From contig JAYJMM010000070.1 in the NCBI GenBank assembly GCA_037349105.1, positions 310,001-374,000 on the forward strand: DNA of 64,000 nucleotides, in the 5' to 3' direction. The translations under genes were made by a program, and so were the position numbers. Origin of the DNA: Limnomonas spitsbergensis. Taxonomy: Eukaryota; Chlorophyta; Chlorophyceae; Chlamydomonadales. Positions 8,003 through 38,506 of this stretch are shown here, piece after piece; position 1 is the first letter of the stretch, and every line of letters starts with the position of its first letter. Below the pieces are notes generated by a model that did not search any database, was not told the origin of the DNA, and worked only from the letters and a program-made list of their open reading frames with translations.

Positions 8003-8010
8003 CACCCACC
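8003..8010. repeat. Target-site duplication, left copy
   Basis: CACCCACC directly precedes the TG of A1 and recurs directly after the terminal CA at 23463-23470. The inner repetition (CACC twice) means the true duplication may be only 4 bp. Confidence 0.6.
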
Positions 8011-8827
8011 TGTCACGACGTATGGGTGCACCGCACGTATGGGTGGCTTGTACCGCTTTTTGGTTTCGGATTTTATCTGTTTGTGGTACTTAGAAGATGC
8101 CTGGCTAACTCCAGGCATTCTTCTCTTCTTACTCAAGTAACATACCGAAGTTGAATCACCCTGCTATCTGTAAACTGTTCTGGGATTAACGTCCAACTGT
8201 GATATTTCGGTCTCTTATCAAGGCCAGGACACTGCACTAATAGGAGATCTCTAGTTTACACTACACTGATCCTATTTCTCCAAGACCACATCATTCAGTA
8301 ATAGGCCCTCATCGTTACACTGATCGAATATCTCTAGTTAACCACTACACTTATTCGTGATCTCTAGCATCAGCTTCTCTACTTCATCAATCTCAGCTCT
8401 ATCTCTCGATTATACCCTACACTGTGAGCTTCAACAGTTCTATCTCCAGGCTATAATTCGACACTGTGAGCTGCTACCCAGGCCTTTTCTGGCTACCCAG
8501 GCCTTTTCTGGCTAAGTCGATTTACTGCACCAGCAGCCGATCCTCCTTATCAAAGAGTCGCCTCTTCGGCTCCTCCTTTCTCATCACTTCGGCTGGATCG
8601 ACTCTCAAGTCCGTTCCACACCATTTCCTACTGTCAACAGTCGGCTTCAGTATAACTAGCCCCAGCAGGAACGAGTTCACTTCGCTACTTTTGTCAACAG
8701 TAAGAGAGGAATCATCAAAGGTTAGTGCAGTAACCCGAGGATTAGTCGAGGATAAACTGTCTGCCAGCAGTTTATCGCTCCTGCACACGCTAGTTAACCC
8801 CTATAAAGGGCACTTAGCACTCCAATA
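8011..8827 (+). repeat. A1: left terminal repeat, lacking the last 49 bp of the LTR
   Basis: It matches A2 (22613-23413) from TGTCACGA to CTCCAATA at about 99% by eye. A TGTAA motif of the chlorophyte poly(A) type lies at 8169-8173 and at the same offset in A2. After CTCCAATA the sequence passes straight into element-specific leader (AGAAGAGAAGAATCC...). In A2 and in the copy near 54.5 kb, a 49-bp B segment follows instead. I found no canonical TGG-type primer binding site in the leader. Confidence 0.85.
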
Positions 8828-8964
8828 AGAAGAGAAGAATCCAGGTTCGCATCGCTTCGAATCTGCTGGCGAGTAAAAACCGGGAATAAGGAGCCAAATC
8901 GCTTTCTTAGGCCGAAAAGTGAGCGATATCAGTGACAGATCCTAATTTCGTGTTCAATTCTGGA

Positions 8965-11900
8965 ATGAATCACGATTCATTCCAGGGAAAGAAAGGGCAG
9001 GAGGACCCAATTCCTTCCAAGCCTGTAGTTAATCTCAAGCTCACAGCTGCTCAGAGAGAAAAAGAGGAGTCTGACAAGAACAAGGCCATGCAGGCGGTTA
9101 AAACCCACCAGCAAAAGTTGGAGCGCAATACCAGAGCTGATAAAGACAGGAGCGCCGACAGCCTGGACCCTCATGAGGCCGAAGTGAGCAGTAAGCTTAC
9201 CAGGGATGCGTCCGCTGATGCAGGAAGGGAGCCCCCAGTACAGGAGGCTAAGCCTCCCCGTGAGTCAGAGCAACGCATTCTGCAGACGCTAGCCCAAGAT
9301 CAGGCCATTCTAGCTAACCAAGCTTACATGAGGTCAAAGGCTCAGGCAAGGAAACTCGCTGCCGCGGAAGCACTCCATGCCGAACAAGTCCAGCAGCGTC
9401 AGCGCGAAATGTGTCGTCTTGATGCATTGCGGCGTGCGACTGAGGCGCAGGTACAAGCCAAGCAGGCTCATGCCGAGCAGGAAGCTGCGGATGAAAAAGA
9501 ATCGCGGCGCGTTGAAAGAGAATTGCAGGATCGCATGATTCGTAATGCGGATGAGAGGCTTGCGTTGACTCCTACAAAGGTAGTCAGGACCCGCTACGAG
9601 GGCCTTGAGCGAATCGACCAGTTGGTCGACAACCCTGCTTATATCGTTGCACAGGATGATTGCTGCAGCGTGCGCTCATTCCCTGTCTGTGCAAGGACCC
9701 AGGGTGCACCTGTGCTTGAAGGAAGGCAGACCTCCCTCCCAGTAATGACCATGCAGGAACTCCCGAAGGTCGCTGGACCTCACCAAGCTACTGACGTGGC
9801 TTACCAGATCAACTCAGCCGTCGCTGTCCGTGTACCAGTCGGCTTCGAGCAAGAGGTGATGCATGCGACACCCACGGCATCTCGTTCAACGGCTGGCGTA
9901 GCTGCGCCTGAATGCAACCCCACCCCTTTCTTCGTGAGCGCAATGTCAGGTATGGCCATGCAATCTGGGGGGCGCCCAGGTGAGTTCGCCCTTGATGGAG
10001 GACCGGTACGTCCAGGGCCCGACGGATACCACGGTAAGCAGGTGAACATGGGGCAGCAATTAGCCATTGTCACGGGAGGCACTGACACCACTGGCGTGGT
10101 CACCCGGGGTGAGTTAAGGGATTTGTTGCGGGACCTGTTCGGGCGAGGACAGTACATAGATCGTGCAATACCACCCGTAGTGGTGCTGCAGGAGCAACCC
10201 GAGCAGCATGCGCAGCAACACCAAGGGTTTGGAAGCGTTCTGTCAGAGGTAAGCCCGTTCAGTGATTCTCATCACCAGGAAAGGGAGGGCTTTCCCCAAG
10301 GCCAGTCACGGTCCCATGCAGCTGCCCCGCCAGCGCATGCATACGGAGTACAACCGCAGGTAGGCGCAGCTCGGGTTCAAGGACTTAGTCATCCCTGGGC
10401 AGATGGGAGTCAACGACGTCCCCATGACCCGCAAGGGCCCTCGATCCAGGGAGGACACATACACCGTGTTCCAGAAGGCTCAGGTGGGGCTCGCTCGGAC
10501 CCTGATCGGCCTCACGGGGGTTCTAGGTCATTCGGGCAGTCAGGATTCACCGGAGGTGAGCGCGAGAATGATAGGCCAGATCCCCCGCGTCGGGAGACTG
10601 GCGGAAGGTCAAGGGGCCATGGCGGACCCAATGACCCTGATGACCCAGGGAACTCCGGCAGTTGGGACACTGGACCCAACCGGGGCAATGCGCCACAAGG
10701 GAGGGGTTCTCAAGGATCAGGTTACCCGGGTGGGCCAGGGGGGTCTGGTGGACCAGGACACGACCCCAGCGCAGCAGCACCCGCAGGTGATTATGAGTCT
10801 GATGATGAGGTGTTCATCAATGACAGGGTGAACGTCCAGTCCAAAAACTTACCCGAGTTCACAGCCATAGCAGGTATGTTGTCATGGAAGAAGTTTTCCA
10901 CGGAACTGTACTCCTACGCGGCCGCTGCCAACAACAGCATTGGGAAGGCCTACAAGGTGCAGGTAATGCTCATGTTAGCCAAATCCAATCAGCAGGGGGT
11001 GGATTTCATGCGGAGGCACATCTCTGATATCACACTGCTGTGCCCTCAAGGAGGCAGGCACCTGCGAGAGGAGTTAAACTTCCGAGCCACTGGAGGTGGG
11101 TTAACAGTGGTAAATGAAACCGTGGAGCTCATGTCCAACATGCGGCGGAACGTCCTAGTCAACATGAACGTGGTGAGTCAGGGCCTGCTGACTCAGGAGC
11201 CTTACCCATCCTTCGGAGGTAACAAGAGGAATTTCTGGTACGCTCTGCTGGCGGTGGGCCACCGCTATCTCAATGTGGCTACTCAAGGTGAGATGAGGCT
11301 CTGGCACAGAGCCATGAAAATGGGTGCTCCCAACGCCCTGGATCCCACTATATCACCGCACGAAACGCCCCAGCAGTTCGCTGACCGCGTGTGCGCCACC
11401 TACGATGCCTTCCTGGCCAGCAACCGGGAGGCTTTCTTGGGTGTGTCTGCGAACAGGGCTGAGGTGACAGTGGTGAGGGAGGGCCTGCCTGTGAGTCTCA
11501 AGTTAGCCTGTGACGACGCTTTCAGGAGGGCAGGAATTTACACGTTCGGGCCCAAGGTGTGTTTCGCCAGAGTGGTAGAGGCGGCGCAACACGCGTTTGA
11601 AGCAGACATGTGGGATGAAGTCGCTGGTACCACTGACAGAGCTGGAACAGCTGTGGTTAAATCAACCCCCAGAAGTCACGCGGGGGCACTTGTCCACGAG
11701 GAGGAACAGGTTCGGGATAGGAATGATCACGAGATAGCAGACTCCTCAGTGGAACGCTCCAGTGCCCTGTGGAACAACGCGGCTCAGGTCAAACCGGTGT
11801 ACCCCACCACCGTGCACCCGCCCAGAGGGAACCAGAGTGCCATGGGCAGAGGGGGGGCAGTCGGTCAGGGACCACCCACTTCTGCACCAAGAACCTACGG

Positions 11901-12324
11901 GGCAACCATGCCTCCCACACCCAGAACGGGCCCTCCCGCACCTAGGCCTCCCGGTCGCCCCAGGATATGCCAACTCTGCTTTGGGGACCACTGGACTGAC
12001 ATGTGCAAAGATTGGCCTGAGTTCAAGGATTTTGCTAACAAAGGGAGGGCCAGCATCGCTAACGGTCCCCTCGGGAAGGACTCACCACCTCCCCTCGTGA
12101 GAGACTCCCACTTCGGACAGGTGCAAGCGTGGGCGTTCCTGGGGTACCAGGAGCAGCAGGAGCAAGAGCGCCTTCTGCACGAGGATCGAGTGGTCAAGCA
12201 GTTCGAAGGAGCCTCCAACTCCACACAGGCAGGTGCTTGCGAATACGCAGGTAAGGGCAGGTGGGGTGTATTGCCTGAGTCCTTCAACCACCAGATTGAT
12301 GTGGACCTCCAACAAGGAAACTGA
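8965..12324 (+). CDS. Gag polyprotein
   Basis: This is the structural protein of the particle. The frame is open from 8932; the first ATG is at 8965, giving about 1,119 residues. The N-terminal 250 residues are charged and rich in Glu, Lys, Ala and Gln, and are probably coiled coil. A Pro/Gly/Gln/His-rich linker occupies the middle. A predicted helical capsid-like segment follows (from about base 10830, with SWKKFSTELYSYAAAANNS). A zinc knuckle of CX2CX3HX4C form (CQLCFGDHWTDMC) lies near 11970. The frame ends at TGA 12322-12324, but the same frame stays open downstream into the protease, so stop readthrough or a nonsense mutation separates the two. Confidence 0.8.
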   Translation: MNHDSFQGKKGQEDPIPSKPVVNLKLTAAQREKEESDKNKAMQAVKTHQQKLERNTRADKDRSADSLDPHEAEVSSKLTRDASADAGREPPVQEAKPPRESEQRILQTLAQDQAILANQAYMRSKAQARKLAAAEALHAEQVQQRQREMCRLDALRRATEAQVQAKQAHAEQEAADEKESRRVERELQDRMIRNADERLALTPTKVVRTRYEGLERIDQLVDNPAYIVAQDDCCSVRSFPVCARTQGAPVLEGRQTSLPVMTMQELPKVAGPHQATDVAYQINSAVAVRVPVGFEQEVMHATPTASRSTAGVAAPECNPTPFFVSAMSGMAMQSGGRPGEFALDGGPVRPGPDGYHGKQVNMGQQLAIVTGGTDTTGVVTRGELRDLLRDLFGRGQYIDRAIPPVVVLQEQPEQHAQQHQGFGSVLSEVSPFSDSHHQEREGFPQGQSRSHAAAPPAHAYGVQPQVGAARVQGLSHPWADGSQRRPHDPQGPSIQGGHIHRVPEGSGGARSDPDRPHGGSRSFGQSGFTGGERENDRPDPPRRETGGRSRGHGGPNDPDDPGNSGSWDTGPNRGNAPQGRGSQGSGYPGGPGGSGGPGHDPSAAAPAGDYESDDEVFINDRVNVQSKNLPEFTAIAGMLSWKKFSTELYSYAAAANNSIGKAYKVQVMLMLAKSNQQGVDFMRRHISDITLLCPQGGRHLREELNFRATGGGLTVVNETVELMSNMRRNVLVNMNVVSQGLLTQEPYPSFGGNKRNFWYALLAVGHRYLNVATQGEMRLWHRAMKMGAPNALDPTISPHETPQQFADRVCATYDAFLASNREAFLGVSANRAEVTVVREGLPVSLKLACDDAFRRAGIYTFGPKVCFARVVEAAQHAFEADMWDEVAGTTDRAGTAVVKSTPRSHAGALVHEEEQVRDRNDHEIADSSVERSSALWNNAAQVKPVYPTTVHPPRGNQSAMGRGGAVGQGPPTSAPRTYGATMPPTPRTGPPAPRPPGRPRICQLCFGDHWTDMCKDWPEFKDFANKGRASIANGPLGKDSPPPLVRDSHFGQVQAWAFLGYQEQQEQERLLHEDRVVKQFEGASNSTQAGACEYAGKGRWGVLPESFNHQIDVDLQQGN

Positions 12325-13287
12325 CGGTACTGCCCTGAGGAACAGCCCATTTCCCTGGCAAACACCTTGGGGGCTGCAAAGGAGAGATATGCCAAAATGG
12401 GAGGATTTTTTTTTCCGGAATCGTTCGGGAAACCCGCGGGGGTCCCTATTCGCAATAAAGTTAAATCTGTCTGGCATGAGCGACCTTCGGGTTCGGAGAA
12501 TCAGAGGTTGGACCCAAGGGATAACGTCACAGGTGTGACAAATTCTTACGGTGCAGGATCTGCCAGGTGGCAACCTGTGATAACCGCCCCTTCTGGGGTT
12601 GAGAGTTCAGCCAAGGGTTCAGTGAGAGTTAAAGACGGGGGGAGCAATGACGGTGATCCTGCTTTCCAACTGCGTATCCCCGTTGTGCTCGTCCTTCCAT
12701 CTGGAGAAAAGAGGGTCTTGCCCGAGTCGTTCACGGTAGGTTCTCTTCAGGTCGCTGACCCGGTCATTCTATCAGCACTCGTGAGCTGTGCACCGGTCAT
12801 TACTGAATATTTCAAGCGCCTTCCAGGTCGTTTGTTCTACTTCCTGAACCCAGTCAACAAACCCAGTGAGTGTGTGGGGATCCTGATTCACAATCACAAG
12901 TTCCTGCCTCGAAAGGCTATGCTTGACTTCGGCTCGAACTGTTTCCTGATCACTGACGTTGAAGCGGCTCGCCTCGGTATCCCTGTTGTATCATATGATA
13001 TTGCGCTGAACACGAGCAATGGATCTAGCACGATTCTGGGGGTCACTGGACCGATCAGAGTATCGTATGGGGCTGGATCGACTGAGCTGCGCACAGATCA
13101 CTGCATGCTAGTCGTTAAAGAACCCAGCAATGCTTCATTTTCCGTTCTTTTCGGAAACCCAGATGGAGCGCAGTACAGTGCTGTGCATGATGTCGGGGCG
13201 GAATCGCTACGCTTGACCTCCATCAAGCCTCCCTTCGCCCTGTCGCTCCCGGTTGTGCTTAGGAGCCCGACCCCGATTTCTGACTGA
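12325..13287 (+). CDS. Retropepsin-like protease segment, in frame with Gag beyond a TGA
   Basis: The frame carries on from Gag without any shift after the TGA at 12322. The segment MLDFGSNCFLITDVEAARLG near 12928-12985 aligns with the retropepsin pattern of D-(S/T)-G followed by a hydrophobic stretch and (L/A)-x-x-L-G. Here the active-site triplet is D-F-G-S, which is unusual. It would cleave Gag and Pol if active. The frame ends at TGA 13285-13287. The first ATG after the stop is at 12400, so translation most likely enters from Gag. Family assignment rests on this one motif and on position. Confidence 0.6.
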   Translation, partial: RYCPEEQPISLANTLGAAKERYAKMGGFFFPESFGKPAGVPIRNKVKSVWHERPSGSENQRLDPRDNVTGVTNSYGAGSARWQPVITAPSGVESSAKGSVRVKDGGSNDGDPAFQLRIPVVLVLPSGEKRVLPESFTVGSLQVADPVILSALVSCAPVITEYFKRLPGRLFYFLNPVNKPSECVGILIHNHKFLPRKAMLDFGSNCFLITDVEAARLGIPVVSYDIALNTSNGSSTILGVTGPIRVSYGAGSTELRTDHCMLVVKEPSNASFSVLFGNPDGAQYSAVHDVGAESLRLTSIKPPFALSLPVVLRSPTPISD

Positions 13288-13831
13288 ATGTTTTGCTATT
13301 AGGATGACAGCTACGTTGCTTCCTCAGTGGCGTAGCCATTTATACATGATACCTCACTCATTGCAGTTTACCAGCCTAAATCTGTTCTTTCCCAGGCTGG
13401 GGGGGGGATGTTGCCTGCTTATCATTTCATGAGTACCACGTGCTGATACCAATGTGCTTTCGCCTTCCCAGACCCCGCAGGAGGATCTTCACTCATACAA
13501 GTGAGTACCCGGACCAGCGTAAGACAGTGTCTGCGAAACTCACGCTAAGTAGAGACCTGCCTCCTTCACGGTAAGGATCGTTCTACGCTTTGTGGTCGCT
13601 ACGCGACCAATCCAAGCTCCAAGTGAGTGGGGATTCGAGATAATAAAAAGCTTAAGATAGCATGAGCTCGTAGACAGTTCTGAGAGATTGGTCTTCCCAG
13701 TATCCCCAGTGCAAGCAAACAGGACAAGGCACGTCATTAGGACGTGCTCCGTGTCCTTTATCAGTCCTTCTCTATGAGAAGGATGTAGTAGTTCTTCCTG
13801 ATCTACCCTCCTCTATGCCTATGGCTGAGTG
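13288..13831 (+). other. Non-coding gap inside the retrotransposon
   Basis: Between the protease frame and the first accessory ORF lie about 540 bases with no convincing plus-strand frame. They contain a run of nine G at about 13400 and several stops in each frame. It could be an internal leader for a subgenomic or spliced RNA, or degraded coding sequence. Confidence 0.4.
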
Positions 13832-14425
13832 ATGGATGGTCCCTGCACTGTGCAGATGTTCCAGTCACGTGTTTCTGCCCAGCGACAGCAGTTGTCCGAG
13901 CGTACATTGCGTGCTAGGAATCGGGTCGCTGCAGCGGTCGACAGGGCGTGGGCGGAACATGGCTGGCAGCCTGACGGTTACACCGCGGAGCTCTTAGATC
14001 TCTTTGAAAGGATTTACGGCGATGCAGAGGAGGCCAAGAGAATTCTGCTGTCCACCATAGCCTCCTTAAAACGGCTACTGCAAATACCACACACCATGCT
14101 TATGGCGTTGGTAGATGGGCACGTGACCCTGCATCAGGTTGCGAAAGGGGCCCCCGTTTGCGCCGCCTTTGAGCGGGGCCCAGGCGTTATCGCCGAACCC
14201 GTTCCCCCAGCGCGCGCGCTGGAAACGCAGGAGCAAGTGGCACGCCTTGCTGCCTTCTATTCAGAGAGAAGAGCTGCCGCTGGTGCTGCGCTGGACCGGG
14301 CCCGTTCTGATTATCGCACGTGGCTCACGGGTTGGCCTGGGGTTCGCCATATGCCCGCCCCCTTCCCGCCCCAGCCATGGATTGCTGAACTGCGGGAGCT
14401 ATTGCAGAGGCCAGTCTTCGAGTAA
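13832..14425 (+). CDS. Accessory ORF 1, helical protein of unknown function
   Basis: It encodes about 197 residues from the ATG at 13832. The protein is rich in Ala, Arg, Glu and Leu and looks largely alpha-helical, with LSERTLRARNRVAAAVDRAW near the N-terminus and an ALETQEQVARLAAFYSERRA block near residue 140. No family is recognised. Its position between protease and RT is unusual, because Ty3/gypsy elements normally run straight from one to the other. Codon use looks coding. Confidence 0.5.
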   Translation: MDGPCTVQMFQSRVSAQRQQLSERTLRARNRVAAAVDRAWAEHGWQPDGYTAELLDLFERIYGDAEEAKRILLSTIASLKRLLQIPHTMLMALVDGHVTLHQVAKGAPVCAAFERGPGVIAEPVPPARALETQEQVARLAAFYSERRAAAGAALDRARSDYRTWLTGWPGVRHMPAPFPPQPWIAELRELLQRPVFE

Positions 14426-14457
14426 ATGCTCTGCTATTCCCTTTTCCCCATGCTGGC

Positions 14458-15200
14458 ATGAACGTGCCTGGGTCCGCGTGCTTTCCCCTCCAGATGGATC
14501 AGCAAGCGGGAGGAGCTGATGGAGGTCGCGGCGGCGGCCGCGAGCAGCGAGGGCGTGGCCCAGCTGGGCCCAAACCCCGTAGCATGAAGCGCCGGGCTAA
14601 CGGCGCTTATTACCGAGAGGAAAACGCCTTCCGCTTCCGAGTCAGCAGCGCCTTCGACGCCTTCTTTCCGGAGTCAGCCGCCGAGGGCCATCAGCCACCT
14701 GTAACACACCGCGGCCGTGGAGGCCGTGGACGCAGCAACAGCGGACGCGGCCAAGGTGGCCGTGATCAGCAGCAAGCCGCTGGGCCATCTGCTCCCGTCT
14801 TCGGGGGGCAGGCTGGTCAGCTGGCCGACCCCGAGCCCGTTGACCCTGCGGAAGTGGCTCGGAGGCTGGAGATGTCCCTAGACGCCTACTTGGCCGAACG
14901 GAATGATCTCCTAGGAATTCAACCAGCCGCAGCAGCAGCAGGTCCCGTGGAGTTGATGGCCGCAGAGGAGCCAGCGCGGCGCTTCAACGCCTCTAACATC
15001 CATGAAGTGGTGAACTGGATTGACCAGGATGGGTTCAAGACAGCCCGGAAGGAGCTCGACCGGGACCCGCGATCCACTGCCTAGAGGGACAGGATCGAAG
15101 AGCTAGTCGTCGATTCCGGCATCCACGTTGATGACCAGGACCTCTGTCGAGCCTACTGCAGGGCTGCGATGGACCTAGACGCAAATGGGAATCCTAACCC
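14458..15200 (+). CDS. Accessory ORF 2, RGG-rich protein with an internal TAG
   Basis: The ATG at 14458 opens 208 codons with two Arg/Gly-rich blocks (GGRGGGREQRGRG and RGRGGRGRSNSGRGQGG), a signature of RNA-binding tails. A KRRANGAYYREENAFRFRVS segment lies between them. A TAG at 15082-15084 interrupts, but the same frame stays open for 38 more codons (RDRIEELVVDSGIHVDD...) to a TGA near 15203. It may be a nucleocapsid-like accessory chain; this is inference from composition only. Confidence 0.5.
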
Positions 15201-15210
15201 GTGAAGGTGT

Positions 15211-18200
15211 GTGCGGCGCAGGGATTGGGGGCTGACTAAGCAAGTTCTCAGGATGTTCCCCATTCCCCGCGTTGCCCCCCCGATCGTGGCTCAGCCGAGG
15301 TTGCACCAGCTAGGTAGCACCCCTCTCCTGCGTGCACTACGCATGCAGCGCCTGCGGCTTTGGCGCTCTCGTCTGAACCTAGTCAAGGCAGGCCTCAGGG
15401 ACAGGAGGTTGAAGCGCAAGGCAGACAGAGTCAGGGAGGCTTCAGAGCTAGCAGTGCGAGCTGTGGTGAACGCTTGCAAACGGGATGAGAGGGTAGCACA
15501 AAGCCGGATGAGGCTGGCTCACTGTAAGAAAGTGCGCTGCAACGTGTGTCTACCTGTCTCTCGTGCCTTCACTGGCTTCGGCCGAATTGCGCTCGTAATA
15601 GTGCTCACCCTGTTCCTAGTGGTGGGATCAGTCTGGGCCACTCCAGGCCTGACAGCTATGCCCACCCTGGCCCAAGAGGCTATCTTCTCCCGCCTCCCAT
15701 GTGAGCCGCTACATGATGGGCAGCCCTGGGCCGCTTACCAGGATGATGCCAGCGCCTACCCAGATCCGTTTATAGAACCATACCTGCAGCCAGCCCTGGG
15801 AATGGGCGATGTCCCGCTGGTAGAGTCGTGGACGTTAGATAGTCTGACACCTGACAGTCCTGCTGACCCCATTGAGCCTGGACGACAGCACAAGACTAAG
15901 GACGGCTGGACCATGGGGGATCACCCAGATATGACTGTGAGTGACCGGGAGGGATTCTTGGCTGAGTTGGGTGGGGCCATCAAGGCTGCTAGTGCTTACG
16001 AATTAGCGGATCTGACTGGGTATTGCGGGCGGGTGCCAGATTTCACTATTGGGCCACCCGGGGTCCCAGTTGTCGTACCCCCTAGCGCAATTGCCAGGAA
16101 AAGCCGGCGCCGCTCCCCGTTGGAGACAGATGTCATGAATGAGCACATGGAGCCTCTGTTGGCTGCAGGATTTATTGTACCCTGCCCCTATGCCTCACTA
16201 ACGCACGAAGCTGTAATTGCAGCCAAGAAAGATCCAGCCACTGGGGCCTGGACGGACAAACGTTGCTGTATCAATTACGGTAAGGCCGCTGGTGGCATCA
16301 ACGCCTATACCCCACCTGACCCGTACCCGCTTCCCTTGCCTGAGGAGTTGTTCGCCCAGACAGCGGGCAGCAAGTTCTTTTCTGTCTGTGATATGAAGTC
16401 TGGATTCGGGCAAACCAAGCTTGACATTAACTGTCAGCACCAGACTGCGTTCTGGTGGAACCGCATGCTTTGGCAAACGAAAAGGAACACGTTTGGGCTG
16501 TCTAACATGCCTGCTTACTTCCAACGTGTCATGACTACCACCATCACGGACGCCGGCCTGTCCAATTGTTGTTGCTGCTTTATTGACGATGTCCTTATCT
16601 TTACCAAGGACCTTGCCTCGCACAAGGTGGCAGTAGCTGCCCTGCTTGCTGCATTACAGGCAGTTGGGCTCAAGGTGCACCCTGGCAAGTGCAAGTTCTG
16701 TTTTGACTCAGTTGAGTATCTTGGGCACATGATAGGGTCTGCGGGAATTAGCCCCAGTGAGACAAAGGTCACGGCTATCAGGGCCCTCCCCACCCCCACC
16801 TCTGTGCATGAGTTGCGGAGGGTGATTGGGTTTGCCAATTACTACAGATGCTATGTACCCAAGTTTTCTGACCTTGCCAGCCCCCTCAATGAGCTGCTCA
16901 GAAAAGGCGTCCCGTGGGACTGGACCCCGGAGAGGGACGCGGCATGGAACGCTCTCAAGGACGCCCTGTGCTTGCCTGGTAATGCACTGCGAAACCCCGA
17001 CATTGACCGAAGGTATATCTTGCATACCGACTGGTCACAGAAAGGTATGTCTGCAATCCTGGGGCAGATGGATGATAATGGGCAGGAATTCCTGGTGGCC
17101 TGCGTCAGCCGTACGTGCAACGTCCATGAGGCCAACTATGGGTCTTATAAAGGGGAGATGCTCGCCGCGGTCTGGGGAGTAAGGGCCTTTAGGTTCTACC
17201 TGCTAGGTGCCAGGCTTCCTTTCTTAATGATCAGCGATCACAAAGGCCTGTCCTGGCTTATGTCCAATAGGGAGCTAGAGGGGCAGTATGCCAGATGGTC
17301 TGTCATGCTCAGCCCGTTCTCCTTTGAACTAGAGTATAAACCTGGGGTGAAACACATTGTTGCAGATGTCCCCAGCCGGTTCCCTGTTCCCTCTTCCGCC
17401 GATACCACTGGCACGAGAGAAACCCACTTTGGCAGTGACTGGCCGGCGCAGCTAAATGAGGATTACTGCAAGAAAGCGAAAGACGATGGGCCGCATGCCT
17501 TTTCACTGATGGCTGCCTGCTTCTCAAGAACGCCGCAGGTACCAATGACGTGGTCCATGTCAGCCATGGCTCAGTCGCTTGGGCACGTGGCAGAGGCCCC
17601 TGACTTCCACCCAGTCCCTGACGTTGTCTCCATCCCTCGACCCAGAGTGTGGCCAGGAATAGATATCGAAATCACCCTCTCTGAGCCTATACTGTTTGGT
17701 CCTTCCCTGACTTCTCGCATTCAATGTCTGGCCGATCAACTAGCTGAGGCGCCACCTGTCAGTTATCACGCTGGTACGTGTGACCCCGTAGGAGCCCATG
17801 CAGTGTTACAGTCGTTTGATGCAGAGATTGCTGGACTGCACTGTTTGGCCACCAATTGTTCAATCTATGATTCCTTGTGTTTGACCCGTCAACAGGCTGC
17901 CCTGCGCACATTAGCTGCTACGCAAGTGGAAGCTTGCCTCCTGCGGCTGCGCCGTACACCGGCGGCTGTTCCCCGGCAACTTGTCGTGGGTACTAGCTCC
18001 ACAGGCGATTTCAACCAGTCCATTGATTCTACCCCTGTTCATGAGCTGGACCTTGCTGTTGCACTGCGTGATGGAATATCCCTCATAGAGCTGTTTGGCG
18101 GCATGGCCAGTGGCCTGGATTGTGTCATGCGCAATGGCATTCGAGTGAACCGTTACTTCTTCTGTGACACATGCACCTCTGCAAGGACGGTGGCACTGTA

Positions 18201-18345
18201 CCGAATGCAGCAATTGTCTAAAGACCACCCATTGTTGTTTCCCGAGGAGTCTTACGCAGATGCGTTCTCGGTGCTGCCCCAGGACGTGTATGACATCTCT
18301 GAAGCCCACCTGATAAACGCTGGTGCACTAACTAAATGGCACCCA
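15211..18345 (+). CDS. Pol: reverse transcriptase and RNase H, running into a methyltransferase domain
   Basis: This frame is open from 15211 without an early ATG (the first is at 15253). Residues near 125-142 form a hydrophobic segment (IALVIVLTLFLVVGSVWA), odd for a Pol protein. The RT core follows: VCDMKSGFGQTKL, the template-grip motif FGLSNMPAYFQRVM, and the catalytic FIDDVLIFT near 16579-16605 (FIDD in place of YxDD). The RT connection (RRVIGFANYYRCYVPKFSDL) leads to RNase H, with the catalytic Asp in LHTDWSQKG near 17021, the Glu in YKGEMLAAVW, and SDHKGLSWL. A tether of about 250 residues then leads to motif I of a cytosine methyltransferase. A frameshift at about 18330-18345 moves the rest of Pol to the next frame. 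Confidence 0.85.
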
Positions 18346-19090
18346 ATGGATGTTGATTGCAGGATTCATGTGCAACGACCTGTCCTCGGCAGGCAAACGA
18401 ACTGGGTTGAAGGGTTAACACAGTTCCACCTACTTTCCCTTGCTCAGAATCCTGGGGACCTTGCAGACCATGCAGCAGAACACTGCCCTGCCTTTGTATC
18501 TGATTGAAAATGTGGCGGTACAACATGCCATTGCCGCATCCGCTGCCATGCGTGACAGCTTTGTAGAGTTGAGAGAGCGCCTAGGTGACCCAGTCACCAT
18601 TGATGCGGCACAGTTTGGAAGCTGTGCACACGGGTTACGTAACTTCTGGTCCAACTGGTGTGACCCCTTGGCACTGCAGGTGGTCTTGTCTTCATTCGTG
18701 AGAGATGACACGAAGACAGCGGTCTCCCTGTTAGAACGGGGCCGTTCTACGCAAATATGTTCGCAGGTCAACCGACCGCCTTACTACCAAGCGAATGTAA
18801 TCGGATTACCACTCATTGTGTTCCCCACCTTCCTTGCCCGACAACACTCGTGGGCTTACAGTGCACTTGGGGCGCTCGGTCCTGCTGGTCAGGGACTGGT
18901 AATCGACAGTGACCGCGGCCTATCTGACCTCACTATTTTGGAGAGAGAGTGATGCATGGGTTACATGGATAATTGCACTGCTGCGCCAGGTATTTCTTTT
19001 GCCGCCAGACACAACCTGACTGGCAGTGCATTTGACGCAAACGCGGTGAGTCACTTGATAGCGACTAGTCTTGCCATTCGTCTCACCTGT
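18062..19090 (+). CDS. DNMT3-like cytosine-5 methyltransferase domain within Pol
   Basis: The domain lies between RNase H and integrase. Motif I is SLIELFGGMASGLDCV (about 18078-18125), corresponding to the SAM-binding D/E-L-F-x-G-x-x-x-G. After a shift into the next frame comes motif IV, LIAGFMCNDLSSAGK (18353-18397), holding the candidate catalytic Cys; the usual Pro before it is Met. A TAA follows at 18416. Motif VI is LYLIENV (Glu-Asn-Val at 18506-18514). A motif VIII-like TIDAAQFGSCAHGLRNFWSN resembles the DNMT3 pattern of R-x-R-Y-F-W-G-N. After another in-frame TGA (18950) a motif X-like AARHNLTGSAFDANAVSHL ends the fold. If translated, it would methylate DNA at C5; the shift and stops make activity of this copy doubtful. 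Confidence 0.75.
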
Positions 19091-20191
19091 GACCGTGGGC
19101 CCAATTCTTTCACGACTTCGGTTGACGCCATGCCTGGTCCTGAGCTGGGGGGGGGAAGCAATCAGGAGCATCAGGAATTGCATGACAGGATTTGTGCAGG
19201 ATCCTTCCTGATTTTTCAGTCAGCCCAGGCCCTGGCAGCCAAGAATGAGGAGCTGAGTAACTGCCCTGACCCCCTGAACCATCTAGATGTCTGGTTGGAC
19301 TCCGCTGTCATGCAGTATTTGCAGCACCCTGACCCAGACTGTCTAGATCAGAGCACGGCCACAGAACGCCGCAGGATCTTGAGACGATCATCGCATTTTG
19401 AGTGGACTGTCAATCAACAGTTGCACAGGCGCATGCCTGGGGGGGGGCTAAAACGTGTACCATCCCCAGAAGAACGCATTCCGCTTGTAAACCGCATGCA
19501 CACTGAGAATGGGCACTTTGGCAGACGCCGTGCAACGGCCTTAGTCACCCTGACGCATTGGTGGGAGGGCCTATGGAACGATTGCAAATTCGTGGTGCAA
19601 ACCTGCGCAGCCTGTGATTTCACCAAGGCCGCGTTCAATCAGCAGCAGGCCGTGCTCAACCCCCTACCAATTAAAGGCATGATGTACCGTTGGCACCTAG
19701 ACTTGTCTGGCCCATACGCTGTGTCCAACCAGGGGAACAAGTACGTCATGGTCGCTATCGAGAGCTACTCTGAATGGGTGGAGGTGTTCCCAATGAAGGA
19801 CAAGTCGTCAGCCGAGGTAGCTTACCACTTCTTGCATGGCATTCTGGCCAGGTATGGTGTCTGTGCTGAGGTAGTCACTGACGGAGGAGGTGAATTTCAG
19901 GGTGAAATGGATGAACTGTTGGTCAGAGCCTTAATAGATCTCAGGGTCACCACCCCTCATCACCCGCAAGCTAATGGGGCCGCTGAACGGCTAGTGCAGA
20001 CGGTCAAAACTGCATTGTTTCGTCACATGCATGAGGATGAGGCAAATATTAAGTCCTGGGACACATACCTGCCATGGGTTGCCCTGGGCTACCGTGTGAC
20101 GAAGCATCAAAGCACGAACATGAGCCCGTACCAGCTGCTGTTTGCATGCGACCCTATCATTCCCCCTGATGTGATGGAACGAATGCCTTGA
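18956..20191 (+). CDS. Pol: integrase, HHCC and DDE core
   Basis: This frame continues from the methyltransferase after TGA 18950-18952. The HHCC zinc domain is visible as HTENGHFG...CAAC (19498-19617). The catalytic triad follows as D in WHLDLSGPY (about 19700), D in VVTDGGGEF (about 19883) and E in HHPQANGAAERLVQTVK (about 19985). This is the DDE recombinase that joins cDNA to the chromosome. It argues against a DIRS-type element, which would use a tyrosine recombinase. The frame meets a TGA at 20189-20191, yet the next codons continue the integrase C-terminus in the same frame. Confidence 0.9.
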   Translation: MGYMDNCTAAPGISFAARHNLTGSAFDANAVSHLIATSLAIRLTCDRGPNSFTTSVDAMPGPELGGGSNQEHQELHDRICAGSFLIFQSAQALAAKNEELSNCPDPLNHLDVWLDSAVMQYLQHPDPDCLDQSTATERRRILRRSSHFEWTVNQQLHRRMPGGGLKRVPSPEERIPLVNRMHTENGHFGRRRATALVTLTHWWEGLWNDCKFVVQTCAACDFTKAAFNQQQAVLNPLPIKGMMYRWHLDLSGPYAVSNQGNKYVMVAIESYSEWVEVFPMKDKSSAEVAYHFLHGILARYGVCAEVVTDGGGEFQGEMDELLVRALIDLRVTTPHHPQANGAAERLVQTVKTALFRHMHEDEANIKSWDTYLPWVALGYRVTKHQSTNMSPYQLLFACDPIIPPDVMERMP

Positions 20192-20887
20192 TTGGTTGAC
20201 ACGTTTTTGGATGAAGACGTTGCAGCTGAGCACGTGCTGCAGCGAGCCAAGATCATGGCTGAGGACTCTGCAATGGCTGGGCAAAATTTGTTAGTTGCCC
20301 AGCATCGCGACACACTAAGGTATGCCAAGCTACGGAGTGGAGCATACCTGCCAAGGATTGTCACGTTCCAGGTGGGGCAGTTTGTGTACGTCCGCAGCGA
20401 GGACAGATTGCATCATACTGCCAGGCCTGTAGTGCTACGAGTACATGATGTACGCCCAAGTGGGGTTTTGGTGCTGGTTGGCAGGGATGGTCGTACCATA
20501 TCAGAGAATGTTCTCAATTGCGCCCCTTGTCACTTGCCGATTGAAGAGATGAGAGGGCCGCCTTTGCAATACTTGCGCCCTTCCTTAGATACGCCGTGCG
20601 AGGTGTGCCTGTTGCCAGACGTTGACAGGCTGCTTGTCCTTTGTGATTCATGTAACCGAGGTTGTCATACTTACTGCATGAATCCACCTTTGAGCAGGGT
20701 TCCGAAGGGCAGCTGGGTCTGCGAACAGTGCAAGGCACTTGGTGCTGGCACCCCAGCTCTACTGACGTTAAGGGAACAGGCTATGACCGAGGGGAAACCC
20801 AGAGCCAAAAGGTATCGCTCAAGCCACAGCAAGTCAGCTCATCACCACCGCTGCCAGCGCCATGGTCGCAAGCTGCACCTTGGCTGA
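20192..20887 (+). CDS. Integrase C-terminal domain followed by a PHD finger
   Basis: In the same frame as the integrase and separated from it only by a TGA. The first part (AGQNLLVAQHRDTLRYA, then FQVGQFVYVRS...VLRVHDVRPSGVLVL) is the SH3-like integrase C-terminus of Ty3/gypsy elements. A C4HC3 PHD finger runs from 20597 to 20731: CEVC, CDSC, HTYC and CEQC, with the usual Trp two residues before the seventh ligand. PHD fingers typically read histone H3 tails, so it could guide integration to marked chromatin; that role is inference. The remainder turns basic (GKPRAKRYRSSHSKSAHHH) and ends at a TGA. Confidence 0.8.
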   Translation: MVDTFLDEDVAAEHVLQRAKIMAEDSAMAGQNLLVAQHRDTLRYAKLRSGAYLPRIVTFQVGQFVYVRSEDRLHHTARPVVLRVHDVRPSGVLVLVGRDGRTISENVLNCAPCHLPIEEMRGPPLQYLRPSLDTPCEVCLLPDVDRLLVLCDSCNRGCHTYCMNPPLSRVPKGSWVCEQCKALGAGTPALLTLREQAMTEGKPRAKRYRSSHSKSAHHHRCQRHGRKLHLG

Positions 20888-21852
20888 ACCCTGCGCCGCG
20901 GCCGGTCCTACGGCCGCGGCCTCCCTCAGAACCACGAGCATCGTCAGCAGTTCCGTCATCGGGCCGGACCAGCCAGCAACTCCATATTGCACAGGCTTGC
21001 GAACCGCCATCATCCCCGCGGGTGATGGTAAGGCCGCCAGAGGATCACACGTCCTACCCGGACGGTGAATCTTCTCAGTCAGCGGCACCCGCCACGACCA
21101 CCGTTCCACTGAGACCACCGAGTGGCCAGCCAGCAGCCCGGGTAAGCCGTCTTCCGTTGCGGTTGCAAACCCATCTCACGACGGTACCTGATCAATGCTC
21201 ACCCGCGTTGTTTCTCGACTGGACCACTAAAGACGGTGTCCGCAGTGGATCGATGTGGCTGATGCCAGGATTATGGGCGGGACGAGACGCTGCAGTCGAG
21301 TTAATCATTACTGAGTTAAACCGTGATCCAAGAACCGCGCTGCTAGAGTGGTTGCCATTATCTGTCATTGAATGTGATGTGATGTGCGCCGCTGTTGATT
21401 TCAGTCTCTCTCCTAGCGTCGTGCTTATGTGTTCTGAGCCCCGTGTTTCTGTTGCCATGCTGGAGAACCGATGGCCAGGTGTCATCACCAACTGCAACGA
21501 CCCCGCGGGCAGGACGGATTATCACTTGGACCCCATGCAGCCCGCCTCGTATCGGTTTCTGAGGAAGCATCACGGTCTCCACGTCATCATTGTCCACCCA
21601 GCGGCAGCACTTGAGGACATTGTGCTCGCTGTCGCAGTACATGCAGTCCCACACGTGGTCTGCTGTTTGGTAGCGGTTAGTTTTCTGAGGTGTTCTCCAG
21701 CAAGATTTGAGTGGCTCTGGCAACTACAGTTGCAGGGGAGGATGGCCATTAAGGCGGTGTCTGGAGGGTATGGGGAAGGAAGTGGGGCTAGGCCTAGGGT
21801 GTGGATTCTGGTCTTTGCGTCACGGGAGGTCATGGGGCGCATGCTGCGATAG
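20810..21852 (+). CDS. Pro-rich linker and C-terminal domain, possibly a degenerate N6-adenine methyltransferase
   Basis: The frame beginning upstream at 20662 becomes convincing from about 20810, overlapping the end of the PHD frame, so one more frameshift is implied. About 120 residues are rich in Pro, Ser and Arg. The final 220 residues look globular: HLDPMQPASYRFLRK, then VIIVHPAAALEDIVLAVAV, then VVCCLVAVSFLRCSPARFEW. This spacing recalls DNA adenine methyltransferases, in which a (D/N)-P-P-(Y/F) motif is followed by a hydrophobic strand and a P-x-S-F-L-like segment. Here the motif reads H-P-A-A, so catalysis is unlikely. The assignment is tentative. The ORF ends at TAG 21850-21852. Confidence 0.4.
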
Positions 21853-22549
21853 TGAGTGATAGCCCGGGTGCGTTGATTTGGGGGTAGTCAGCAGGATTAG
21901 AGTGGAGTTTGGGGACAATGGGAGAAATTAGTGTGAGAAATCTGCGCATCAGAGGGGAATTGAGGAGATCGAGTCGGGGCGTTAATGCTGGCAGGTCTAG
22001 TGCATCAGAGAGTTGAGTGAAGGAGCACGTAGGGTGCAGGAGACGCGTGCACGCGTGGGATTGTCCGGGGCGCATAAAGCGAGTTGAGTCAAGTAGTGGT
22101 TTGGGGCGCATAACGCGAGGAGGGATAGGGTGCCTGGTTAGGTAGGCCTGCCAATAAAGGACGCGTCGTGGAGTGGAGCCTTGGAGCCGTGGTCGGCTTG
22201 CGAGGGATGGACTGATGGGACAATCGACACTGGCGCTGGCGGGGAAGCTGATAGTGTCAAGAGCTGGGGGGGAGAATCTTGTGGTGTTTGAGTGCAGACG
22301 TTATGTTGGCAAGAGGGCTTCCTTATGACCGTCAATGTCGTGCCCCATAACGCCACGTAGCCTACTGCACAACCACAGGATTATATGCTATGGATCGTTA
22401 ACCTCCATAGCATTTTTGAAAGGTAACTGTTTACAGTCCTTTATTATGGCCGTAAGGATTTCCCCACTGGGGTTTTCATCCTGCGAAATTGGCCAGGGAG
22501 GTACTTATACAGTCCTCCCTTAATTAAGCTCTTGCATTATGAAGGTCGG
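21853..22549 (+). other. 3' non-coding region of the retrotransposon
   Basis: No credible coding frame is present. The stretch contains repeated GCGCATAA(A)GCGAG-like words near 22070-22110 and a G-rich run before the right repeats. Confidence 0.5.
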
Positions 22550-22561
22550 ACTGGGGGGGGA
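22550..22561 (+). promoter_or_regulatory. Candidate polypurine tract
   Basis: A run of eight G followed by AG lies directly before TGTCTTCTG, the start of B1. In LTR elements this is where plus-strand synthesis is primed. Its position before B1 rather than before A2 is one of the oddities of the element. Confidence 0.5.
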
Positions 22562-22610
22562 GTGTCTTCTGTGCGCAGTGAAACTTCATGTTCACTGCTG
22601 CCTCGTGACA
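22562..22610 (+). repeat. B1: 49-bp segment of the LTR 3' end, placed before A2
   Basis: Identical to B2 (23414-23462). It can form a hairpin with an 8-bp stem (GCAGTGAA paired with TTCACTGC). It ends in TCGTGACA and, after the dinucleotide GC, meets TGTCACGA of A2. Confidence 0.9.
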
Positions 22611-22620
22611 GCTGTCACGA
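22603..22620. repeat. Perfect 18-bp palindrome at the B1-A2 junction
   Basis: TCGTGACAGCTGTCACGA equals its own reverse complement. It looks like two LTR ends joined tail to head through the two bases GC, as in a two-LTR circle junction. Confidence 0.9.
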
Positions 22621-23413
22621 CATATGGGTGCACCGCACGTATGGGTGGCTTGTACCGCTTTTTGGTTTCGGATTTTATCTGTTTGTGGTACTTAGAAGAT
22701 GCCTGGCTAACTCCAGGCATTCTTCTCTTCTTACTCAAGTAACATACCGAAGTTGAATCACCCTGCTATCTGTAAACTGTTCTGGGATTAACGTCCAACT
22801 GTGATATTTCGGTCTCTTATCAAGGCCAGGACACTGCACTAATAGGAGATCTCTAGTTTACACTACACTGATCCTATTTCTCCAAGACCACATCATTCAG
22901 TAATAGGCCCTGATCGTTACACTGATCGAATATCTCTAGTTAACCACTACACTTATTCGTGATCTCTAGCATCAGCTTCTCTACTTCATCCATCTCAGCT
23001 CTATCTCTCGATTATACCCTACACTGTGAGCTTCAACAGTTCTATCTCCAGGCTATAATTCGACACTGTGAGCTGCTACCCAGGCCTTTCCTGGCTACCA
23101 AGTCGATTTACTGCACCAGCAGCCGATCCTCCTCATCAAAGAGTCGCCTCTTCGGCTCCTCCTTTCTCATCACTTCGGCTGGATCGACTCTCAAGTCCGT
23201 TCCACACCATTTCCTACTGTCAACAGTCGGCTTCAGTATAACTAGCCCCAGCAGGAACGAGTTCACTTCGCTACTTTTGTCAACAGTAAGAGAGGAATCA
23301 TCAAAGGTTAGTGCAGTAACCCGAGGATTAGTCGAGGATAAACTGTCTGCCAGCAGTTTATCGCTCCTGCACACGCTAGTTAACCCCTATACAGGGCACT
23401 TAGCACTCCAATA
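22613..23413 (+). repeat. A2: right large terminal repeat
   Basis: It is the counterpart of A1 with the TGTAA motif at 22771-22775. It lacks the 19-bp internal duplication seen in A1 near 8475-8515 and is followed directly by B2. Confidence 0.9.
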
Positions 23414-23462
23414 GTGTCTTCTGTGCGCAGTGAAACTTCATGTTCACTGCTGCCTCGTGACA
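23414..23462 (+). repeat. B2: terminal 49-bp segment of the right LTR
   Basis: Identical to B1. Its last eight bases form the inverted-repeat terminus of the element, and CACCCACC follows directly. Confidence 0.9.
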
Positions 23463-24239
23463 CACCCACCTACGAATCCATCACGTTGACAACCGACGAC
23501 GCAATGACTGTTCTGGTGGACGATGGAGGCGCAAAAGATGTTTAGAATAAGCGATAGTTATGAAGGTTGGGAGAAGATAGGAGCATGTGTGCAATGTCTT
23601 CTTGGGGTGAGAGAGGCAGGTCGGTGGTGGAGTGGTGCACTCTAAGAGAAGAGGCAATGCATCAACGTTGGCATGCATTGATGGCGCATGACTCTGTTGT
23701 GGGATCCCCTCGATGTGCACTTTTCTCACTACCTTTTTGAAAAGTGGAAGGTCGCTCAATGACACAGAGGGAAACTTGAGGGTCACTGCTTGTTGTTGCT
23801 GCTGAGGACGCCTAGTTGCGCATAGGACAGCGTAGCCTTGTTGGACGTTTGCGGGCGCACGGGCTGTTCTTGGCGCTCAGCGAGCCCCCCTCCCTGGGTG
23901 CATGGGCAGATGAGAACATACTCTGCTGCCTCGAGATACACTCTTAGAGAACGCAGCATGTGGCAGGACTTGTTCTCCATTACCACCGCGGATGCAGGGT
24001 CAAGCCTGAGCTGAACTCCTTTGAGCTCTGCTAGCCAGTCAGTGATCAAGACAAAAATGCTCGGTGGGAATGGGACACGGCAACGGCCGACACATGCCTG
24101 AATTTGACGAACCCTGATTTTCGCAACTTGGCAGTGCAAGCAGCATTGTTCTACCCTTCATCTCACACATTGTGTCAGATTCTGCCCCTCTCCCCGCCCT
24201 CCCTTCCCCGTCTTCGGGCTGCAACTGCGACGGTGGGCA

Positions 24240-37800: not shown

Positions 37801-38506
37801 CAGGAGCTGCTGGCTGGCATGCGTGAGGCGCTGCTCCCGAGTACATGGTTTGTGGCTCCTTCCCTCACTCACCAGCTGCCACCATTGGTTGCATTGCCTC
37901 GCAGGAGCTGCTGGCTGGCATGCGTGAGGCGCTGCTCTCGAGTACATGGTTTGTGGTTCCTTCCCTCACTCACCAGCTGCCACCATTGGTTGCATTGTCT
38001 CTCAGGAGCTGCTGGCTGGCATGCGTGAGGCGCTGCTCCCGAGTACATGGTTTGTGGCTCCTTCCCTCACTCACCAGCTGCCACCATTGGTTGCATTGCC
38101 TCGCAGGAGCTGCTGGCTGGCATGCGTGAGGCGCTGCTCCCGAGTACATGGTTTGTGGCTCCTTCCCTCACTCACCAGCTGCCACCATTGGTTGCATTGC
38201 CTCGCAGGAGCTGCTGGCTGGCATGCGTGAGGCGCTGCTCCCGAGTACATGGTTTGTGGCTCCTTCCCTCGCTGACCAGCTGCCACCATTGGTTGCATTG
38301 TCTCGCAGGAGCTGCTGGCTGGTATGCGTGAGGCGGTGCTCCCTGAGTACATGGTGCCGGTGTCGCTGATCTTTGTACCCGTGATTCACCGTAAGGAAGA
38401 TGGTGGTGACGGACTGGACGACAGGTGGATGCTCAGCGAAAGCATGTCCAGCGATACAGAAGCCACGACGGAGCTGTGCGCATACGTCCTTCGCATAATG
38501 TCAGAG
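28870..38506 (+). CDS. Adenylation (AMP-binding) domain, exons 1-9
   Basis: Residues 1-757. The nucleotide-binding loop LLLHTSGTSGKKK (about residues 237-249, split by intron 2) is core A3. YGMSE at 384-388 is core A5. DDWFDTGDLGYMD (about 468-480) is A7, and YLYITGRSKEVINRGGE (about 485-500) is A8. LPITSTNKITR with Lys near residue 583 is A10-like. About 110 further residues follow, and then a second A-domain-end-like stretch at 692-708 (ELLAGMREAVLPEYMVP), so the C-terminal subdomain looks extended or partly duplicated. The family forms acyl- or aminoacyl-adenylates from ATP. Confidence 0.85.

Follow-up and report, generated by a model that had tools for sequence, protein, structure and literature searches.

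The window analysed here is a stretch of 64,000 nucleotides from the chlorophyte Limnomonas spitsbergensis (contig JAYJMM010000070.1). It contains a retrotransposon copy at positions 8011-23462, the middle part of which was the subject of the initial annotation. This copy is probably best explained as a decayed member of a large Ty3/Gypsy-type retrotransposon, in which the Pol polyprotein comprises reverse transcriptase (RT), RNase H, a DNMT3-like C5-methyltransferase (MT), integrase (IN) and a PHD finger. Pfam matches in the window copy follow the order reverse transcriptase, RNase H, integrase zinc finger, integrase core and PHD finger, the last of which had already been noted and is confirmed (Table 1). 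The order RT-RNase H-integrase, by which Ty3/Gypsy elements are recognized, is found in the window copy and in intact sister copies.

The methyltransferase domain

The MT is located between RNase H and integrase on the plus strand, and motifs I, IV, VI, VIII-like and X-like, which the initial annotation had listed in this order, were all found there. The frames had also been said to continue Pol. This does not hold for the window copy: a single frameshift, from frame 1 to frame 2, separates motif I from motif IV, and stops interrupt the second of these frames at 18416, 18950 and 20189. The window copy has no open frame for the MT and is non-functional.

The broken MT pieces of the window alone matched no Pfam family at E <= 10. 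Consequently, the analysis of the domain was moved to intact sister copies. Four of these score 19.9-21.7 bits against PF00145, slightly below the 22-bit cut-off, and the best score among the retroelement copies reaches 32.1 bits (L011). The suggested comparison with C5-methyltransferase profiles is thus negative for the window frames and positive for their intact sisters. The lack of a profile match, which had been named as grounds for rejection, would mislead in this case: the broken window pieces have no match, and intact copies do. DNMT3A is matched with E 1.1e-12 in a single-sequence search and E 2.7e-16 in a profile search. The motif order I, IV, VI, VIII, X is unpermuted and not that of DRM enzymes, the nearest solved relatives and the fold are those of DNMT3, and the counterpart of the motif IX/X region in sister copy L081 aligns to the C-terminal part of DNMT3A. 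The domain is homologous to DNMT3, and the proposal of a DNMT3-like enzyme inside a Ty3/gypsy Pol is borne out by both sequence and fold. Judged by its residues, it is DNMT3-like and not a standard DNMT3, because the Pro before the catalytic Cys is absent (Met in the window element).

Table 1. Features of the retrotransposon copy, in window coordinates
Feature	Position	Strand	Evidence or remark
Target-site duplication CACC, 5' side	8007..8010	.	Flank comparison; flank match extends to 8 bases, CACCCACC
Repeat A1, 5' terminal, starts TGTCACGA	8011..8827	+	Identity to A2 97.2% (821 columns; 7 mismatches, one gap)
Gag-like open reading frame (ORF) with CX2CX3HX4C knuckle at 11962-12006	8923..12321	+	Open frame; no Pfam match
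TGA stop separating gag and protease ORFs	12322..12324	+	Identical in sister copy L081
Aspartic-protease-like ORF, weak	12325..13284	+	Asp_protease_2 E 0.002, 19.2 bits, below the 24.3 cut-off
RVT_1 reverse transcriptase	16342..16734	+	Pfam E 2.8e-19
RNase H	16999..17319	+	PF17917 E 1.2e-24
DNMT3-like C5-methyltransferase domain; one frameshift, stops 18416 and 18950	18061..19081	+	Motifs located; pieces match sister copies
Motif I, ELFGGMASGL, frame 1	18088..18117	+	Sequence
Motif IV, GFMCNDLSSAGK, Met preceding catalytic Cys, frame 2	18362..18397	+	Sequence
Motif VI, LYLIENV from 18494 (IENV), frame 2	18494..18520	+	Sequence
Motif VIII-like, CAHGLRNFWSNW inside span, frame 2	18614..18658	+	Sequence; AHRLRNFW in intact copies
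Motif IX/X region, ERE...GYMDNCTAAPGI...GSAFDANAVSHLIA, frame 2	18932..19081	+	Sequence; TGA at 18950-18952
Integrase H2C2 zinc finger	19466..19627	+	PF17921 E 7.2e-10
rve integrase core	19685..19966	+	PF00665 E 5.3e-10
PHD finger, C-terminal side of integrase, here beyond the stop at 20189	20597..20734	+	PF00628 E 1.7e-10
G run, polypurine-tract-like, adjoining B1	22553..22560	+	Sequence
Repeat B1	22561..22610	+	100% identical to B2
Palindromic B1/A2 junction, TCGTGACA-GC-TGTCACGA	22603..22620	+	Genome-wide site count
Repeat A2	22613..23413	+	Comparison with A1
Repeat B2, ends TCGTGACA	23413..23462	+	Identical to B1
Target-site duplication CACC, 3' side	23463..23466	.	Flank comparison

Retention of the methyltransferase in the genome

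The genome search covered an assembly of 260,226,709 bases in 124 contigs, and the copy counts are lower bounds. With PF00145, 123 of 664 candidates were scored, and open frames of 1,000-5,315 aa hold many of these. In searches with the window MT pieces, 150 candidates were scored of 763 and of 800. These pieces are 90-98% identical to close sister copies, about 63-70% and 50% to wider families. The intact copies that were to be sought do exist: MT-bearing open frames extend to 2,213 aa within the close family, and those of the most distant family to 5,499 aa.

The place of the MT within Pol was assessed from 103 RT matches (47 distant rows being left out). Of these, 88 could be paired with an integrase match within 8 kb, with a spacing of 1.9-2.4 kb in 78, larger in eight and smaller in two. 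An MT match lies between RT and integrase in 86 of the 88 pairs, including that of the window itself.

Within families, the median ratio of nonsynonymous to synonymous divergence (dN/dS) of the MT is 0.08-0.10 in three dS bins between 0.02 and 1. In the same bins it is 0.12, 0.04 and 0.02 for integrase, and 0.10, 0.05 and 0.04 for RNase H. Bins of dS 1-3 hold few pairs and were omitted (MT 0.06, n=1; integrase 0.03, n=5; RNase H 0.28, n=4). Because most comparisons between families show saturated dS, ratios are quoted within families only; nonsynonymous differences in the MT between families amount to 0.18-0.43. The MT is under purifying selection and is less strictly conserved than RT and integrase.

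A second MT-bearing group, with open frames of up to 5,499 aa, is represented on the minus strand by L082 (G000:C38:604400-614399). The 3,261-aa part read there holds two PHD matches, and its motif IV is WECHDLS.

The wider clade and its catalytic motif IV

Relatives were collected in three protein searches (31, 21, and 120 of 220, among the matches listed). The MT profile is matched by all 154 database proteins taken in. The architecture RT-MT-IN-PHD is found in 108 of them, a partial one in the same order in 25, the MT alone in 20, and a PHD finger before RT in one. Most of the matches listed are unnamed; the named hosts among them include Haematococcus lacustris (four), Monoraphidium neglectum, Scenedesmus sp. 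PABB004 and the liverwort Calypogeia fissa, the protein of which has an aspartic-protease domain. P0076, labelled as a bacterial bin, is taken as contamination. By precomputed labels, P0010, P0011, P0090, P0092, P0121 and P0145 carry an extra chromodomain (PF00385) or PF01585 in Pol.

Motif IV was compared in 158 MT domains, namely the 154 proteins and four families of the L. spitsbergensis genome. The catalytic Cys is kept in all 158, and the EN of motif VI in 157 of 157 readable rows. The preceding residue is far more variable: Glu in 126 domains, Pro in 18, Ser in six, Met and Asp in three each, and Ala and Cys in one each. In C5 methyltransferases at large, Pro at this position is considered near-universal, and it is present in the DNMT3A row. 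The Met reported for the window element is real. It is common to three of the four element families sampled in the genome, those closest to the window element, and these are the three Met cases. In the MT tree, ten Pro rows are joined in one well-supported group, and a few further Pro rows stand amid non-Pro rows. At least six changes between Pro and other residues are needed on a 74-row tree, and its starred branches force four between Pro and Glu rows (14 rows with other residues uncounted). DNMT3A does not root the Pro/Glu change, as its branch on this tree is about 5 changes per column long. The Met of the window element can be regarded as part of a clade-wide loosening at that position.

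The RT and MT trees were compared for 70 of 109 two-domain rows, comprising all non-Glu rows, all named rows and alternate rows of the remainder. The trees have 31 of 67 inner branches in common, compared with 0.2 in shuffles, and eight of ten MT-tree groups are recovered as one side of an RT-tree branch, the exceptions being E4 and D3. Such agreement is predicted by a single old capture followed by joint inheritance. The MT has long travelled with the RT in a clade whose named hosts are mostly green algae, and the capture is almost certainly a real and old association of the two domains.

Terminal repeats and the proposed form of integration

The repeats of the element are arranged as A-coding-B-A-B, with A alone at the 5' end and B-A-B at the 3' end; B is absent before A1. 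The complete, identical long terminal repeat (LTR) at both ends that is typical of Ty3/Gypsy elements is therefore not present, and the element is of Gypsy type by its Pol, not by its repeat layout. Four more copies share the A start and the B end, B2 being altered in one. All five copies are flanked by target duplications of at least 4 bp, as expected of a DDE integrase: CACC in the window (with 8 matching bases), ACAC, ATAA, ACTT and GGGG. DIRS elements are not known to have a target-site duplication, and membership in DIRS or SymbioDIRS-Dnmt3 is ruled out by the rve integrase together with the 4-bp target duplications.

A primer-binding site adjoining A1 was not identified. The G run adjoins B1 at the place where an ordinary LTR would begin, marked by the plus-strand primer, and reverse transcription should therefore yield B-GC-A repeats. 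Despite this expectation, A forms the start and B the end of all five insertions. The palindrome with any 2-bp spacer has 77 exact sites in the genome, compared with 0 for a control pattern, and some of these sites fall a few kb from copies of the second family, F2. The layout is best explained by a circular DNA form with two repeats, in which the integrase would cut one palindromic B-GC-A junction and then insert the DNA. Such a cut would yield the observed A-coding-B-A-B arrangement, with the second palindrome staying unopened inside. On the repeat anatomy alone, the chances of a circular intermediate are about even. A split-repeat layout combined with a DDE integrase is unusual and provides a clear prediction about the integrating DNA form. 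Spumaretrovirus integrase, described as cutting two-LTR circles, sets a precedent for action at a circle junction (PMC1180852), whereas circle cutting by the window element is deduced from its repeat layout.

Pairing of ends was based on the best 40 matches to each end. It gave 28 pairs, seven at 13.7-13.8 kb, two at 11.4 and 12.5 kb, and 19 at 4.3-7.4 kb, while 12 of 40 remained unpaired. The short elements of 4.3-7.4 kb lie between the same end junctions (e.g., C24:1641953 to 1648492) and are probably a smaller group dependent on elements of the window type. Within the coding part, in-frame TGA stops occur at 12322-12324 (AAC TGA CGG) and 15202-15204 (CCG TGA AGG), both the same in L081; stop readthrough may occur at them, linking gag, protease and Pol.

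Proposed function and alternative explanations

In living copies, the MT would be produced as part of Pol and may act in or near the integration complex. There it could methylate the new DNA of the element itself or the chromatin at the landing place, while the PHD finger on the integrase side would help to choose or hold the site. The best reading is a predicted DNMT3-like enzyme, working or recently working within the integration machinery and acting, most simply, on new element DNA. That the MT is catalytically active in intact members is rather likely. By analogy, retrotransposon DNMTs are reported to methylate CG de novo (de Mendoza et al., PMC5890265), which would make activity plausible here. 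That the element's own DNA is the main target is a more tentative prediction, somewhat doubtful in itself.

Several results weigh against an active, self-directed enzyme. The Pro is missing in most of the clade, and activity is not to be assumed. In two of the three bins, the within-family dN/dS of the MT exceeds the values for integrase and RNase H by a factor of about two or more. Between close families, dN in the MT is two to three times that in RT-RNase H: for F1 and F2 it is 0.21 in the MT, 0.10 in RT-RNase H and 0.05 in integrase, and for F1 and F3 the values are 0.39, 0.13 and 0.19. Two of the 88 RT-integrase pairs lack the MT. In one of them, part of the RT-integrase interval is gone. 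The other, C124:2743396 (L083, G000:C124:2742400-2744300), has a 190-bp spacing and an open frame of 1,422 aa in which RNase H continues directly into integrase. This copy is closely related to family F3 (dS ~0.22), with dN/dS of 0.04-0.05 in both RT-RNase H and integrase. Intact-looking members without the MT, which had been proposed as a refuting case, thus exist but are rare, and this open copy indicates that loss of the MT need not destroy the frame at once. Finally, extra CpG loss was not found in the element, the CpG observed/expected ratio being 0.68 there and 0.59 in window positions 26001-64000; two sister stretches gave 0.65 and 0.62. Self-methylation receives no support from these values, CpG depletion being no stronger in the element than around it.

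Part of this evidence fits the main rival explanation, in which the MT is a non-catalytic, DNMT3L-like module that helps in assembly or targeting by binding to DNA, S-adenosylmethionine or chromatin of the host, the change beside the Cys marking lost methylation. A residue other than Pro (Glu, Ser, Met, Asp, Ala or Cys) in 140 of the 158 domains, the faster evolution of the MT relative to RT, and the open copy without the MT are all in its favor. However, a scaffold would not need the invariant Cys and EN, and the occurrence of Pro rows, including the group of ten, among Pro-less rows would be unexpected of a Pro-less form that was permanently dead. The scaffold explanation is considered rather improbable. 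A similarly low probability is assigned to an active MT aimed mainly at the host genome or rival copies, for example by silencing competitors or mimicking silent host chromatin. The lack of excess CpG depletion in the element agrees with such an activity, and possible rivals exist in the shorter elements that share its end junctions (19 of the 28 pairs, with 12 of 40 ends unpaired), but a target of this kind is nowhere indicated, and the PHD finger beside the integrase points to the integration complex. A chance or recent landing of a host methyltransferase gene in a single copy could be suspected from the window pieces, which alone have no Pfam match. It is already refuted, with practically no probability left, by the recurrence of the domain at this site in nearly all RT-integrase pairs and in the database proteins, and by the agreement of the MT and RT trees.

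An active enzyme within the integration machinery can also be embedded in a broader scheme, which as a whole is unlikely. It would comprise a large and old green-algal retrotransposon clade in which the DNMT3 catalytic loop works without Pro, mostly with Glu, and with altered chemistry or substrate (e.g., single-stranded cDNA, RNA-DNA hybrid or circular intermediate). A two-repeat circle would be cut by the DDE integrase at the palindromic junction, with marking and insertion coupled in one Pol.

DNA methylation is usually a weapon of the host against retrotransposons. Where selection has kept a de novo-type methyltransferase next to integrase and a PHD finger throughout a clade of elements, it becomes testable whether an element can profit from writing the mark. 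The exchange of the motif IV Pro across the clade offers, in turn, a natural experiment on a motif that is among the most constant in C5 methyltransferases.

Relation to known systems

The MT shares with DNMT3A, DNMT3B and DNMT3C the unpermuted motif order, the fold, the catalytic Cys, EN and motif VIII, at about 19-30% identity in structure alignments. It differs from them in having Met or Glu in place of the motif IV Pro, in its location within Pol, and in the C-terminal position of the PHD finger, past the integrase. In chromodomain Gypsy elements, a chromatin-reader module stands at the C-terminal side of the integrase; in the window element, the module on this side is a PHD finger and not a chromodomain. 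Two database relatives, P0010 and P0011, have both according to precomputed Pfam labels.

The closest described system is KnitGypsy-Dnmt3 of Klebsormidium nitens, reported to have Dnmt3 in a Gypsy Pol, DIRS-like repeats and Ka/Ks < 0.2 (PMC5890265). Like the window element, it combines a Dnmt3-type domain in the Gypsy Pol ORF with purifying selection, and, as far as the text and figure legends of that paper describe it, the A-coding-B-A-B layout. The hosts differ, that of the window element being a chlorophyte. The window element has a PHD finger, whereas the word 'PHD' is absent from the main text of PMC5890265. The change from Pro to Glu or Met beside the Cys is a feature of the clade of the window element, KnitGypsy-Dnmt3 being compared by its description only. 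Its authors interpret KnitGypsy-Dnmt3 as captured independently within the lineage of K. nitens (PMC5890265). Given the breadth found here, and again by description only, one older clade might include it; among the rows listed in the protein searches, none is named as a K. nitens protein. The same paper describes the Symbiodinium elements SymbioDIRS-Dnmt3, with Dnmt3 in Pol, and SymbioLINE-Dnmt as retrotransposons that carry a cytosine methyltransferase. Their integration depends on a tyrosine recombinase in SymbioDIRS and on an endonuclease in SymbioLINE, in contrast to the DDE integrase and 4-bp target duplications of the window element.

The presence of methylase-bearing elements in green algae is not in itself claimed as new, because an opinion paper already states that DNA-methylase-carrying Ty3/Gypsy and DIRS elements occur there among other groups (PMC6338049). 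Literature searches for a Gypsy-DNMT element in chlorophytes yielded this paper and PMC5890265. The kind is known; new to it is the variant with a PHD finger and an altered motif IV in a clade of chlorophyte elements, and novelty of the Glu form is not claimed from the literature. The assembly paper of L. spitsbergensis assigns 4.41% of the genome to Gypsy/DIRS1 elements, and no word starting with 'methyl' or 'PHD' occurs in its main text (PMC11228838).

Other observations in the window and genome

At window positions 34001-38000, TG/CA is about 1.9, and the CpG observed/expected ratio of 0.37-0.40 is well under that of the remaining window. Other C5-methyltransferase fragments in the genome are L004, L008, L010, L009, L012, L013 and L018, some of them repeated across contigs. 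The standard PC motif was seen in L004, L008 and L010, and the fragments read in frame are not of retroelement type. L001 and L002 are one-frame C5 methyltransferases (PF00145 E 1.8e-55 and 2.4e-26) that look bacterial or viral by eye.
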